In this document: one piece after another, positions 17,656-22,917 of the stretch
Layout of the letters: each line of letters starts with the position of its first letter
Position numbering within the stretch: the first letter of the stretch is position 1
DNA from: a virus
Length of the DNA: 23,374 bases
IMG/VR virus record: IMGVR_UViG_3300021406_000044
Coordinates: 1 to 23,374 of that record
Direction: 5' to 3' (one strand)
Made by a program: the position numbers and the translations under genes
The notes under the pieces: model-generated
What the model saw: the letters and a program-made list of their open reading frames with translations, nothing else
The model's database searches: none
What the model was told of the DNA's origin: nothing

Positions 17656-17729
17656 CCCTCATTACGTTAACAGGAAACAGCGACTCTCTTAAAGTCGAAT
17701 CCTCGGGGCAGCACCGAGATGAGGGACCA
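17656..17729 (+). tRNA. tRNA-Lys(CTT) with GGCAGCA T-loop
   Basis: Acceptor CCCTCAT/ATGAGGG (7/7), TA at positions 8-9, D-stem GTT/AAC, anticodon arm CGACT-CTCTTAA-AGTCG (anticodon CTT, U33, A37), then T-arm CTCGG-GGCAGCA-CCGAG, discriminator A and CCA. All stems are perfect, and the gene lies one base after tRNA-Leu. The T-loop is not TTCRANY, so standard searches may miss it. Confidence 0.8.
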
Positions 17730-17730
17730 C

Positions 17731-17802
17731 CGGGTACGAGGAAGACAGCAATCCGCGTGATTTGGGATCACGAAATACTGGGGGCAGCACCCAGGTATCC
17801 GA
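17731..17802 (+). tRNA. tRNA-Pro(TGG) with GGCAGCA T-loop
   Basis: Acceptor CGGGTAC/GTATCCG, D-stem GGA/TCC, anticodon arm CGTGA-TTTGGGA-TCACG with G37 as expected for Pro, T-arm CTGGG-GGCAGCA-CCCAG, discriminator A, CCA not encoded. It lies one base after tRNA-Lys. Confidence 0.8.
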
Positions 17803-17805
17803 CGT

Positions 17806-17868
17806 AACGAAGTGGACACCCGGAGGCTACTGCTAGCGGTTACCCAAAGGCGCATGTGCTTCGTTTTT
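17806..17868 (+). terminator. Possible terminator
   Basis: AACGAAG and CTTCGTT pair and are followed by TTT. The 46-base loop is long for an intrinsic terminator. Confidence 0.25.
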
Positions 17869-18240
17869 CATGGGGCTAAACAAGATTCGATTTCGATGAC
17901 TGACCCTATATTGACAATCCGTGATGCGAGGTCACGTTAATAAGCGCACATGAAACAACCGACAACACTACGTTCGGTATCGCTGACGAAGCCGCTTTCT
18001 ATCTGTCTCAGGTAGGATCTAAGGTTCTCGTATCCGCTTAAAAGCGGCAGCCGGGGCTAGGGACGCCTTGCAATCCAAGATCCCTAAAGTCCGGTTTCTG
18101 ACTTCCGACAATAAAAGTCAGTGGTGGAACAGTGGCGGCAACGTCACCCCTGCAACATGACAAACCGGAAAGACGGAAATGATTGTGACAATGTAGTAGA
18201 GGCCCGAAAGACGCGGGGGCAGTACCCGCTAGCTCCACTC

Positions 18241-18288
18241 AGCATGTTGAGATGCTCAAAATCACGGGCGGCGGGTGCTCAACCACCC
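18241..18288 (+). promoter_or_regulatory. Two hairpins with complementary loops (kissing-loop candidate)
   Basis: AGCAT-GTTGAG-ATGCT (18241-18256) and GGGTG-CTCAAC-CACCC (18273-18288). The 6-base loops are exact complements. A third segment, GGTTGAG (18307-18313), 2 bases before the HNH gene's AGGAG, can also pair with CTCAACC, which suggests a switch controlling the HNH gene. Confidence 0.5.
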
Positions 18289-18326
18289 AATGCCCACCCT
18301 TTCCTGGGTTGAGACAGGAGCAGAAA

Positions 18327-18818
18327 ATGGTTATCAGGAAATACGATCATAGCGAAACGGCCATCCGTAGAGTAGTATCATCATGTTATTCATACGCTGA
18401 TGTTTTGCGTGCGCTGGGTATTCCGTCTAACGGAGTCAACAACACCCGCATTACTCAAAAAATCGCACAATACGAAATAGATGTTTCTCATTTCTGGGTT
18501 AAAGCAAAACCAAAACAGCCTTACAGATCCAGGCGTTCAACTGCCGAACGATTGGTATCAGAAGAAGGAGCGCCCCGCATAGGCTCCGATATCCTAACTC
18601 GGGATCTACTGAGCATAGGTCGGACCTATGAATGTGCGACCAAGGGTTGTCCGATAAGATCGCATTGGCTAGGTGAGTCAATCGTTCTGCACATAGATCA
18701 TATTGATGGAAACTCTTGGAATAACAAACCTGAGAATCTACGATTTTTGTGCCCTAACTGTCATTCTCAAACGCCGACTTTTGCTGGTCGTAATAAAGGC
18801 AAAATCATACGCGGGTAG
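18327..18818 (+). CDS. HNH homing endonuclease (free-standing)
   Basis: 163 residues from an ATG with AGGAG 6 bases upstream. A longer frame from 18252 lacks a site and runs through the hairpins, so I prefer 18327. The N-terminal part (ETAIRRVVSSCYSYADVLRALGIPSNG) looks like a helix-turn-helix DNA-binding module. The C-terminal part has C103/C108, then HIDHIDGNSWNNKPENLRFLCPNCH (122-146), an HNH nuclease with a CxxC zinc site. It would cut a DNA target and spread its gene. Its last codons overlap a tRNA-like D-arm segment. Confidence 0.9.
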   Translation: MVIRKYDHSETAIRRVVSSCYSYADVLRALGIPSNGVNNTRITQKIAQYEIDVSHFWVKAKPKQPYRSRRSTAERLVSEEGAPRIGSDILTRDLLSIGRTYECATKGCPIRSHWLGESIVLHIDHIDGNSWNNKPENLRFLCPNCHSQTPTFAGRNKGKIIRG

Positions 18819-18850
18819 ACAAACTGGTAAAGTCGCCAGCCTCTATCTCA
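18819..18850 (+). pseudogene. tRNA 5'-part remnant
   Basis: Just at the HNH stop codon the sequence reads GGTAGAC AAA CTGG-TAAAGTCG-CCAG. This closely resembles the start of tRNA-Ser(CGA) further on (GGAAAGT CAA CTGG-TGAAGCGG-CCAG). No anticodon arm or T-arm follows before tRNA-Gln, so it appears truncated. Confidence 0.35.
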
Positions 18851-18853
18851 CTT

Positions 18854-18925
18854 TCCGGAGTAGTGTAATCGGTAGCACGCGAGCTTCTGGCGCTCGTAGT
18901 CTGGGTTCGAAGCCTGGCACCGGAA
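18854..18925 (+). tRNA. tRNA-Gln(CTG)
   Basis: Acceptor TCCGGAG/CACCGGA with one A/A mismatch, D-stem GTG/CAC, anticodon arm CGAGC-TTCTGGC-GCTCG, T-arm CTGGG-TTCGAAG-CCTGG, discriminator A, CCA not encoded. Confidence 0.85.
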
Positions 18926-18941
18926 CTTAGCAACAAATCAT

Positions 18942-19016
18942 GGCCTATTAGTGTAGCGGTAGTCACGCAAGCTTGTCACGCTTGAAGAGGGAGTCCGACT
19001 CTCCCATAGGTCGCCA
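18942..19016 (+). tRNA. tRNA-Asp(GTC)
   Basis: Acceptor GGCCTAT/ATAGGTC, anticodon arm CAAGC-TTGTCAC-GCTTG, T-arm GGGAG-TCCGACT-CTCCC, discriminator G as expected for Asp, CCA encoded. Confidence 0.93.
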
Positions 19017-19017
19017 T

Positions 19018-19092
19018 GTTCCCTTAGTGTATTGGATCGCACAAGGATCTACGAAATCCTTAGGGTCGGATCATCCCCGGCAGGGAACGCCA
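19018..19092 (+). tRNA. tRNA-Arg(ACG)
   Basis: Acceptor GTTCCCT/AGGGAAC, anticodon arm AGGAT-CTACGAA-ATCCT, T-arm GTCGG-ATCATCC-CCGGC with an unusual loop, G then CCA. One base after tRNA-Asp. Confidence 0.88.
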
Positions 19093-19093
19093 T

Positions 19094-19166
19094 GCTGTGA
19101 GAAGTGGATTATCAGTAGAGAGTCCGAATCTCTGCCTCCTGGGTCCGAATCCCAGTCACAGCGCCA
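19094..19166 (+). tRNA. tRNA-Arg(CCG)
   Basis: Acceptor GCTGTGA/TCACAGC, anticodon arm AGAGA-GTCCGAA-TCTCT, T-arm CTGGG-TCCGAAT-CCCAG, G then CCA. One base after tRNA-Arg(ACG). Confidence 0.92.
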
Positions 19167-19223
19167 TCGGGTAGGTGCCGTCGCTGACGCCACAAGCGCA
19201 GCAGGCAGCGGCCCGTTGATTTT

Positions 19224-19297
19224 GTCGCCATCGCATAATGGTAGTGTTCTTCCTTGGTATGGAAGTAGTTTGGGTCCGATTCCCAATGGCGGCTCCA
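19224..19297 (+). tRNA. tRNA-Thr(GGT)
   Basis: Acceptor GTCGCCA/TGGCGGC, anticodon arm CTTCC-TTGGTAT-GGAAG, T-arm TTGGG-TCCGATT-CCCAA, T then CCA. Confidence 0.92.
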
Positions 19298-19463
19298 GTT
19301 TGGGTGGTAGGGACAGAGGTTAGCTAGGCCCGGTCATGGGGCGCTGGCGCCGTAAACGGAGGATGGGAAAGCCGTGTCCGCTAGGGGATACTCTAGATTG
19401 TCGGATTTTCGAGTCTGCATGACGACCCACGGTATTGACACCCCACCGGCCACCCAGTTTCTT
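19298..19463 (+). ncRNA. Structured noncoding spacer
   Basis: About 165 bases without a gene. TGGGTGG (19301-19307) is the exact complement of CCACCCA (19450-19456) and encloses the rest. Inside are GGCGC-TG-GCGCC, CCGTG/CACGG (19372-19376/19428-19432) and TCCG/CGGA (19377-19380/19402-19405) with CTAG/CTAG. It is closed by 7 bp like a tRNA but is twice as long, with no recognisable anticodon or T-arm. Confidence 0.4.
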
Positions 19464-19537
19464 CTCGCATTAGCTCAGTGGATAGAGCGTCGGTTTCCTA
19501 AACCGAGTCAGCGTAGGTTCGAATCCTATATGCGAGG
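19464..19537 (+). tRNA. tRNA-Arg(CCT)
   Basis: Acceptor CTCGCAT/ATGCGAG, classical D-arm TAGCTCAGTGGATAGAGC, anticodon arm TCGGT-TTCCTAA-ACCGA, T-loop TTCGAAT, discriminator G, CCA not encoded. The most canonical tRNA in the array. Confidence 0.95.
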
Positions 19538-19541
19538 CAAA

Positions 19542-19646
19542 CCGAGTAGGACCGGTTCGATTCCGGCCCACCGCGGTCTAGACAATTGATCGGGACCGAT
19601 CAGAAGCGGTGGACTTAGTGTAATGGTGGCACAACTCGGGGTTTAT
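19542..19646 (+). tRNA. Candidate circularly permuted tRNA (second case)
   Basis: The 3' half (CCGAG, TAGG, ACCGG-TTCGATT-CCGGC, CCACCGC; 19542-19574) precedes a 31-base spacer with a TGATCG-GGAC-CGATCA hairpin. The 5' half (GCGGTGG 19606-19612, D-arm GTG/CAC, CTCGG 19635-19639) follows. GCGGTGG/CCACCGC pair 7/7 and CTCGG/CCGAG 5/5. The linker between acceptor and D-stem is 5 bases instead of 2. It fits exactly between tRNA-Arg and tRNA-Ser. The anticodon is not defined. Confidence 0.45.
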
Positions 19647-19735
19647 GGATAGTGAACTTACAAGGGGTAAGGCTTGCCTGCTAAGCAATGCGCCCGTTTT
19701 CGGCGGGTGGTGTTCAAGTCACCCGCTATCCTCCA
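19647..19735 (+). tRNA. tRNA-Ser(GCT)
   Basis: Acceptor GGATAGT/GCTATCC, D-stem CTT/AAG, anticodon loop CTGCTAA with a 4-bp stem, long class II variable arm, T-loop TTCAAGT, T then CCA. Confidence 0.88.
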
Positions 19736-19755
19736 GTTGCAACAAAGGAGCAATC

Positions 19756-19887
19756 ATGCTCATTTTCTTAATCCTACTACTGATTCTCTTCGCCATCTTT
19801 GGCTTCATTACAACTCCGTTCGTTTGGATAGCCGCCATCGTCGTGCTAGCCATCATCGTATTCGGACATTCGCGGGGGAAACTGTAG
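19756..19887 (+). CDS. Small membrane protein (43 aa)
   Basis: ATG with AAAGGAG 5 bases upstream. MLIFLILLLILFAIFGFITTPFVWIAAIVVLAIIVFGHSRGKL: two hydrophobic segments joined by a short turn and a basic tail. This resembles small inner-membrane phage proteins (holin-like size), but no lysis role is shown. A longer frame from 19645 has no ribosome site and crosses tRNA-Ser. Confidence 0.7.
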   Translation: MLIFLILLLILFAIFGFITTPFVWIAAIVVLAIIVFGHSRGKL

Positions 19888-19900
19888 GAAAGGACGCGTC

Positions 19901-20062
19901 ATGCAAGTTGTTGCTCTATTCGTCTCCATCGCTGCTGTTGCTGTCTTTGGCTACAAGTGGCACAAGGAAAATGATATCGGATACGCCGGAATGATGTTGT
20001 TTGTGATTGCATTCATCTTGCAATTCTGGACCATATGGCATCCGGTACATTGGGTTTGGTAA
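19901..20062 (+). CDS. Small membrane protein (53 aa)
   Basis: ATG 13 bases after the previous stop, with AGGAAAGGA upstream. MQVVALFVSIAAVAVFGYKWHKEND then MMLFVIAFILQFWTIWHPVHWVW: two membrane segments with a charged loop and an aromatic end. Likely translated together with the preceding gene. Function unknown. Confidence 0.7.
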   Translation: MQVVALFVSIAAVAVFGYKWHKENDIGYAGMMLFVIAFILQFWTIWHPVHWVW

Positions 20063-20068
20063 ACCTGC

Positions 20069-20154
20069 GGAAAGTCAACTGGTGAAGCGGCCAGGGTAGA
20101 TTCGAAACCTACACGTTCCCTTAGGGGGATCCGGGGCGGGACCGGGGCTTTCCT
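20069..20154 (+). tRNA. tRNA-Ser(CGA) with GGCGGGA T-loop
   Basis: Acceptor GGAAAGT/GCTTTCC, D-arm CTGG/CCAG, anticodon loop TTCGAAA, class II variable arm (TCCC-TTA-GGGGA), T-arm TCCGG-GGCGGGA-CCGGG, discriminator T, CCA not encoded. The loop TTCGAAA looks like a T-loop but sits at the anticodon position. Confidence 0.75.
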
Positions 20155-20184
20155 CTCACGAAGGGGAACAGAAGTGGGGATCTC

Positions 20185-20469
20185 ATGGAGATAGCCCTAA
20201 TCATTATCAGCGCAGTTTTCACGGCGTTGATCGGTCCATACATCATCTACCGATTGAACAAGCAGGATCAAAAAGGAAGAGAGCGCGATAACGCTATTGC
20301 TCGCGTTGAGGTTCATGTAGATGGACGCCTTGACGACACGATTGAAGAGGTAAAGAATTTGAAGAAGCTGATTGCTACCAGTAGGGTCAGTGGAGATCCG
20401 GTACCAGCACAACTAGCTGGTGGTGATTCCGCAACAGTAACCGGGAAGGTAAATCAGGAAGGTTCCTGA
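20185..20469 (+). CDS. Single-span membrane protein (94 aa)
   Basis: MEIALIIISAVFTALIGPYIIYRLNKQDQKGRERDN: an N-terminal membrane segment followed by a charged helix (VDGRLDDTIEEVKNLKKLI) and a polar tail. The ribosome site is weak (GGGG about 8 bases upstream). Several phages keep such short proteins near lysis genes. No family recognised. Confidence 0.65.
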   Translation: MEIALIIISAVFTALIGPYIIYRLNKQDQKGRERDNAIARVEVHVDGRLDDTIEEVKNLKKLIATSRVSGDPVPAQLAGGDSATVTGKVNQEGS

Positions 20470-20531
20470 CGCTGCTTTGAATACAGACGGCGCTTAACGG
20501 CGTGCTCATCGTGTGGGCTGCCTTCCTCCAC

Positions 20532-20616
20532 GGAAAGTGAACCGGCAGAGTGTCGGCCCTATCTGGAAAGTAGGTGGGGCGAGAAATCGTCTGGGTGGCG
20601 GGAACCCCGCTTTCCT
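20532..20616 (+). tRNA. tRNA-Ser(GGA) with GGCGGGA T-loop
   Basis: Same acceptor as tRNA-Ser(CGA) (GGAAAGT/GCTTTCC), anticodon arm CCTAT-CTGGAAA-GTAGG, long variable arm, T-arm TGGGT-GGCGGGA-ACCCC (one mismatch), discriminator T, CCA not encoded. The 62 bases before it (20470-20531) show nothing else. Confidence 0.75.
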
Positions 20617-21018: not shown

Positions 21019-21092
21019 TCCCTGCCGGTGTGAAAGCCACATGCTTCGCTGTTAACGAAGAGAACCGGGAGCGTTACCTGGGCGGGGAGCCA
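21019..21092 (+). tRNA. tRNA-Asn(GTT)
   Basis: Acceptor TCCCTGC/GCGGGGA, D-stem GTGT/ACAT, anticodon arm CTTCG-CTGTTAA-CGAAG, T-arm CCGGG-AGCGTTA-CCTGG (unusual loop), G then CCA. One base before tRNA-Cys. Confidence 0.85.
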
Positions 21093-21093
21093 C

Positions 21094-21167
21094 GGCGCCG
21101 TGGGTGAGTAGTGAACTGCTCGTCTGCAAAACGAGTCACACCAGTGCAAATCTGGTCGGCGCCTCCA
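21094..21167 (+). tRNA. tRNA-Cys(GCA)
   Basis: Acceptor GGCGCCG/CGGCGCC, anticodon arm CTCGT-CTGCAAA-ACGAG, T-arm ACCAG-TGCAAAT-CTGGT, discriminator T (the Cys identity base), CCA encoded. Confidence 0.93.
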
Positions 21168-22843: not shown

Positions 22844-22917
22844 GCGGGAGCGGGGTCGGTACCCCAGCCAGTCTTATTAACTAGCCTTAGCAGGCTCAAC
22901 ACCTGTCTCCCGTACCA
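22844..22917 (+). tRNA. tRNA-Ile(TAT), unusual anticodon loop
   Basis: Acceptor GCGGGAG/CTCCCGT, D-stem GGGG/CCCC, anticodon loop CTTATTA, T-arm GCAGG-CTCAACA-CCTGT, A then CCA. Position 37 is T instead of a purine, and one stem pair is C/A, so the identity (codon AUA) is tentative. Confidence 0.65.

Follow-up and report, generated by a model that had tools for sequence, protein, structure and literature searches.

The window analysed here, a viral record of 23,374 bases (IMG/VR IMGVR_UViG_3300021406_000044), carries the genes of a contractile-tail phage in its left part (sheath, tube, portal, major head protein and terminase) and a tRNA array in its right part. Seven RNAs of the window, the tRNAs for Lys, Pro, Ser (two genes), Asn and Cys and a transfer-messenger RNA (tmRNA), have a G at position 55 of the T-loop, and in Pro, both Ser, Asn, Cys and the tmRNA the usual G18-G19 of the D-loop is replaced by A18-G19 (the reading for Lys is ambiguous). 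The two halves of the elbow have thus changed in step in these RNAs, with G19 and C56 retained. The remaining tRNAs of the window combine U55 or C55 with GG in the D-loop and form the majority, the strict cloverleaves numbering 12 with U/C55 and four with G55.

RNAs with G55 in the window

The original prediction was that four tRNAs share a T-loop of the form GGCRGNA. All four are present, with GGCAGCA in Lys and Pro and GGCGGGA in the two Ser genes, although the set is larger than proposed, as the tmRNA (GGCAGTA), tRNA-Asn (AGCGTTA) and tRNA-Cys (TGCAAAT) add further RNAs with G55. All seven lie on the plus strand. tRNA-Lys(CTT) (17656..17729) is the only one of the four reported genes to encode CCA, and its D-loop, AACAGGA, reads AGG, which leaves the A18-G19 assignment ambiguous; tRNA-Pro(TGG) (17731..17802) has the D-loop GACAGCAA with A18-G19. 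Both fold into cloverleaves with perfect 7-bp acceptor and 5-bp T stems, a 5-bp anticodon stem and U33. The two class II genes are tRNA-Ser(CGA) (20069..20154), with GAAGCGG in the D-loop and an A31/C39 mismatch, and tRNA-Ser(GGA) (20532..20616), with the D-loop GCAGAGTGT (AGAGT) and a T-stem closed by U53-A61; the discriminator is U in both. A scan based on stems alone revealed tRNA-Asn(GTT) (21019..21092), an A18/G55 tRNA with the D-loop AAAGCC and A-U at 54-58, while tRNA-Cys(GCA) (21094..21167; D-loop GTAGTG) is A18/G55 with U54-A58 retained. The idea that all parts other than the T-loop are normal therefore holds for the acceptor and T stems of Lys and Pro, but not for the D-loop, nor for the Ser genes with their mismatches and discriminator U. 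The T-loops of the four reported genes depart from TTCRANY, of which GGCRGNA keeps C56 and R57 only.

The window tmRNA (17872..18236) lies between tRNA-Pro and the Ser genes and matches Rfam RF00023 with 48.2 bits (gathering score 47). It has the acceptor GGGGCTA/TAGCTCC with the G3-U70 pair of a tmRNA, a T-stem GCGGG/CCCGC and the D-loop CAAGATTCGA (A18-G19), and it is a one-piece molecule, not a permuted one, its 5' acceptor strand lying 341 bases upstream of the T-arm. A GGCRGNA-type loop is already recorded for tmRNA, of which the window provides a one-piece instance. In the permuted tmRNA (Rfam RF01849, alpha_tmRNA) the T-loop is GGCRGUA with AG at 18-19, as in the window, and the consensus T-arm CCGGGGGCgGUACCCGG aligns to that of the window tRNA-Pro; unlike it, the window tmRNA is in one piece, and an anticodon arm marks each of the four reported genes as a tRNA. 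A search of viral contigs for tmRNA T-arms with GGCRGNA gave at least 120 matches; among the matches listed, 111 have their 5' partner downstream, i.e. are permuted, and 111 of the 112 viral tmRNAs with a readable 5' partner have AG at 18-19. The 108 viral permuted tmRNAs checked likewise have AG, as does the window tmRNA, and a canonical one-piece phage tmRNA combines GG with TTCGACT. We rejected the idea that the tRNAs acquired their T-arm from the tmRNA next to them, as the T-stems differ and the loop alone is common to them.

Detection by gene finders and covariance models

Run on the window, ARAGORN listed 21 tRNAs besides the four reported genes, and did not list Lys, Pro, Ser(CGA), Ser(GGA) or the Asn gene at 21019. 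The Rfam tRNA model RF00005 gave no match to the four reported genes, even at E<=10; tRNA-Cys was detected by both. The expectation that standard tools would miss these genes is thus borne out with ARAGORN and Rfam for all four in the window, but is not general, as tRNA-His genes of the same type are annotated in some GenBank phage records (see below).

A covariance model (R1) was built from 35 diverse related sequences, all class I tRNAs and none from the window. It ranks the window tRNA-Pro first (63.1 bits, E 2.4e-15) and tRNA-Lys next (56.4 bits, E 1.7e-13), both above all canonical window tRNAs, and also recovers tRNA-Asn (38.8 bits, E 1e-8) and tRNA-Cys (39.9 bits). The tmRNA T-arm is a weak match, as are Ser(CGA) (E 0.023) and Ser(GGA) (E 0.077), the last two because they are class II and R1 holds only class I tRNAs.

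Coupling of positions 18 and 55

The elbow of a normal tRNA includes a contact between G18 and U55 (as pseudouridine, Ψ55) and a base pair between G19 and C56 (see the review PMC7912444). To count combinations of positions 18 and 55, cloverleaves in the window and in all fetched phage, viral and bacterial loci were scored on their stems alone, with positions 18, 54, 55 and 58-60 unused, and tRNAs that had been retrieved by patterns naming those positions were removed; the counts are for tRNAs with C56. Cloverleaves with U/C55 had G18 in 330 cases and A18 in none (38 ambiguous), and those with G55 had A18 in 90, an ambiguous AGG in 20 and a nominal G18 in two, both of which also contain AG in the D-loop, the GG lying elsewhere in the loop. 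The corresponding Fisher p of 9e-91 is indicative only, since the sequences are related and the value is inflated. The same division is seen when viral and phage loci (G18:A18 of 263:0 with U/C55 vs 2:40 with G55) and cellular loci (67:0 vs 0:50) are counted alone. Consistent with this, a class I pattern scan of viral contigs for A18 with GGCRGNA gave 41 matches and 34 cloverleaves, compared with three matches and one cloverleaf in the control scan for G18 with GGCRGNA. Positions 54 and 58 also vary jointly in A18/G55 RNAs, G-G being the commonest combination and U-A, A-U and C-A occurring as well; where the combination is G-G or A-U, A predominates at position 60.

The exchange can also be followed between homologues. 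Outside the T-loop, the window tRNA-Pro shares 83% identity with the homologous gene of Streptomyces phage BillNye, in which TTCGACC goes with GG. The tRNA-Phe genes of phages Mildred21 (TGCGATA/ATAGAT) and LilMartin (CTCGATA/ATGGAT) differ in the D-arm at position 18 only, and in two verrucomicrobial tRNA-Arg(TCT) genes the T-loops TGCAAAT and TTCAAAT, which differ solely at position 55, go with AG and GG, respectively. Among relatives, 19 of 20 pairs show change on both sides, the rows having been pre-filtered for good stems.

Occurrence in other phages and bacteria

Other phages do carry T-arms with GGCRGNA, for which the original prediction had proposed to search related phages, and stem changes are compensated in a tRNA-His(GTG) family with the T-loop GGCRGTA and the D-loop AAAAG, present in 33 Streptomyces phage records (Samistivirus and Coruscantvirus). 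This gene has the same type of elbow as the window tRNAs in a different isotype and phage family, and it is annotated in only some records and unannotated in many. In the seven examined, the acceptor and anticodon stems vary with compensation while the GGCRGTA loop and AAG are constant. Streptomyces phage Coruscant has a further unannotated tRNA-Val(TAC) with the T-loop GGCAGAA (L123:11161-11230), and several alternative-elbow tRNAs are found on contigs of giant phages, 418 and 434 kb in length.

The form is not confined to phages. A scan of 84,980 bacterial genomes yielded at least 118 loci; among the matches listed, 85 had cloverleaves and most belonged to three groups. The first comprises Levybacteria-like candidate phyla, where mostly tRNA-His is concerned; the second consists of arrays from Verrucomicrobia and Chloroflexales, with G55 in almost every tRNA; the third is an actinobacterial family. 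A strong model match was found in 22 of 41 genomes of the Levybacteria family. In one Levybacteria genome, examined at each of its 41 Rfam tRNA positions, the sole tRNA-His, tRNA-Gly(GCC) and tRNA-Cys(GCA) found are A18/G55. In the verrucomicrobial arrays (Prosthecobacter and relatives; L208, L231, L246, L265, L268, L280 and L289) nearly every tRNA, across most isotypes, is G55/A18. The actinobacterial family (Streptomyces, Actinomadura, Nocardiopsis and others) has a near-identical body with hypervariable anticodons, including the stop-reading TCA and CTA; its members sometimes stand two to four in tandem (L175-L292, e.g. L181:2622-2931, L242:2759-2907 and L235:4957), and tRNAs of this type occur in seven of 61 Streptomyces genomes searched. 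The hypothesis that the motif is restricted to phages or to tmRNA was rejected, since it occurs in cellular tRNAs, phage tRNAs and permuted tmRNAs.

A search of the surroundings of the actinobacterial copies with PADLOC and Pfam found no neighbour in common. At two places (L176:4167-5993 and L235:5208-6257), one copy lies near a gene for a CdiA-CT RNase-A-like toxin and another adjoins a type I restriction specificity gene, an observation on few loci and without a control.

Discussion

Our analysis suggests that the A18/G55 RNAs are most likely functional tRNAs and a tmRNA whose elbow is built from alternative tertiary contacts. The original prediction had reasoned that such tRNAs must fold the elbow differently or lack the T-loop modifications, and both ideas gain support from the coupled change at position 18, the repetition of the form in hundreds of RNAs and the compensated stems. 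An A18-G55 contact would take over from G18-Ψ55, and G54-G58 would substitute for the reverse-Hoogsteen U54-A58 pair. The outward-facing G19-C56 pair, which is contacted by RNase P and the ribosome, would be preserved and the L shape presumably kept. Given the known chemistry of the enzymes, Ψ55 cannot form on G55, and neither m5U54 nor m1A58 can form in GGCRGNA loops; RNAs with G55 are therefore not substrates for Ψ55 formation nor, where the loop is GGCRGNA, for m5U54 or m1A58. The only genes identified in the window for Pro, Ser and Asn are of the A18/G55 type. Since the identified canonical tRNAs supply none of these three isotypes, the alternative-elbow tRNAs of the window most likely act as ordinary adaptors in the infected cell. 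That the sole tRNA-His found in one Levybacteria genome is A18/G55 similarly suggests that the form probably works in translation.

Several observations weigh against so simple a picture. The coupling is not absolute, as one tRNA-Asp (L174) combines G18 with GGCAGCA, and six viral tRNAs (L331, L355, L380, L388, L393 and L402), among the first 120 matches listed in a scan that selects for AG, combine A18 with U55 in a canonical TTCRANY loop. The other A18/TTCRANY matches listed were mostly register artefacts, that is, tRNAs, many of them for Leu, whose D-loop still contains GG, and for this reason we did not use that scan as a clean fourth cell of the 18/55 table. Position 18 is moreover read by aligning a loop of variable length, and the 20 unselected AGG cases, which include the window tRNA-Lys, are ambiguous. 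Both Ser genes are irregular, with a few stem mismatches, one of them in the T-stem of Ser(GGA), and the Levybacteria gene list has neither tRNA-Met nor tRNA-Ala(TGC), so that further genes may have been missed there.

The stem irregularities of the Ser genes, together with the failure of standard tools to find the four reported genes, are what might be expected of decaying pseudogenes. The acceptor and T stems of Lys and Pro are perfect, however, these genes score strongly in a model made from sequences outside the window, their relatives are conserved with compensation and distant positions change in concert, which makes decay extremely unlikely; on the model scores, the conservation and the 18/55 coupling we rejected a pseudogene or chance origin. 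It has also to be considered that these RNAs resemble tRNAs but have been withdrawn from translation and bind EF-Tu weakly, as proposed for the cell-wall tRNA-Gly genes of staphylococci. The non-proteinogenic tRNA-Gly of S. aureus has UU or CU instead of GG at 18-19 and is thus a natural bacterial tRNA that, like the window genes, is without G18-G19 (PMC4052509), and the alternative elbow is present in the actinobacterial family, whose single body carries many different anticodons, TCA and CTA among them. The staphylococcal tRNA loses G19 as well and is thought to avoid use in translation, whereas the window RNAs keep G19-C56 and change positions 18 and 55 jointly. The window genes in addition supply ordinary isotypes that the canonical tRNAs lack, and translation in Levybacteria apparently needs the tRNA-His, so that diversion seems quite improbable to us. 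The T-loop of the staphylococcal non-proteinogenic tRNA-Gly also has G55.

Why such an elbow should exist is a separate matter. It may have arisen by neutral, compensatory drift from G18/U55 to A18/G55 in tRNAs that are independent of T-loop modification, without any special function, and we would give this explanation a little less than an even chance. It is compatible with an elbow of alternative tertiary contacts, as it concerns the origin of the elbow and not its nature. The minimal pairs, in which one T-loop base (TTCAAAT/TGCAAAT) and position 18 differ, the presence of intermediate 54/58 combinations and the scatter across isotypes and lineages all fit such drift; the almost wholly switched verrucomicrobial arrays suggest something more, but common descent of the array could account for them too. 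A proposal with a function, in line with the escape from T-arm enzymes considered in the original prediction, is that the elbow was selected to hide phage tRNAs from T-loop ribonucleases, modification enzymes, defence systems that target tRNA and other host enzymes or toxins acting on the TΨC arm. GGCRGNA abolishes U54, U55 and A58, the sites that those enzymes use, at a single stroke, phages and the extra tRNA arrays of bacteria often have the form, and some actinobacterial copies lie beside the toxin and restriction specificity genes mentioned above (few loci, without a control). Most tRNAs of the window are canonical, however, and the need for concealment is not obvious in the sole tRNA-His found in a bacterial chromosome or in permuted tmRNAs, and selection of this kind therefore appears unlikely. 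The broader proposition, that a second natural class of elbow, with A18-G55 and G-G or other pairs at 54-58, works without TΨC modifications and that phages and mobile arrays thereby evade the T-arm enzymes, modifiers and nucleases of the host, is rather doubtful on the comparisons made here.

Gene finders, models of modification and structural rules all depend on the TΨC loop and on G18-G19, two features regarded as near-universal in tRNA. A widespread and coordinated second elbow would mean that the tRNA sets of phages and bacteria are under-annotated. It would also offer a natural test of the roles of Ψ55, m5U54 and m1A58, and the A18/G55 exchange is a swap of tertiary contacts that is accessible to structural and mutational tests. 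We found no description of A18/G55 tRNAs in the open literature searched. Phages, plasmids and bacteria have, like the window, extra tRNA gene clusters on mobile elements (PMC5966550; PMC6409571), and a search of these two papers by term turned up nothing about alternative T-loops or D-loops.

Other features of the window

The nearest relatives of the sheath protein, at about 30% identity, are in phages of Gordonia, Brevibacterium and Arthrobacter, which makes an actinobacterial host likely for the window virus; the portal protein, used as a query for relatives of the window, found none. Within the tRNA array, the segment 17049-17289 matches the Rfam manA RNA motif at E 2.5e-8; its 41.8 bits fall short of the gathering score of 55.2. 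A probable additional tRNA, absent from the ARAGORN list, lies at 22844-22917, with the anticodon TAT, the T-loop CTCAACA and G18. Finally, a tRNA-like gene at 19094-19166 has good acceptor and T stems and an anticodon arm that resembles a second T-arm, both loops being TCCGAAT.

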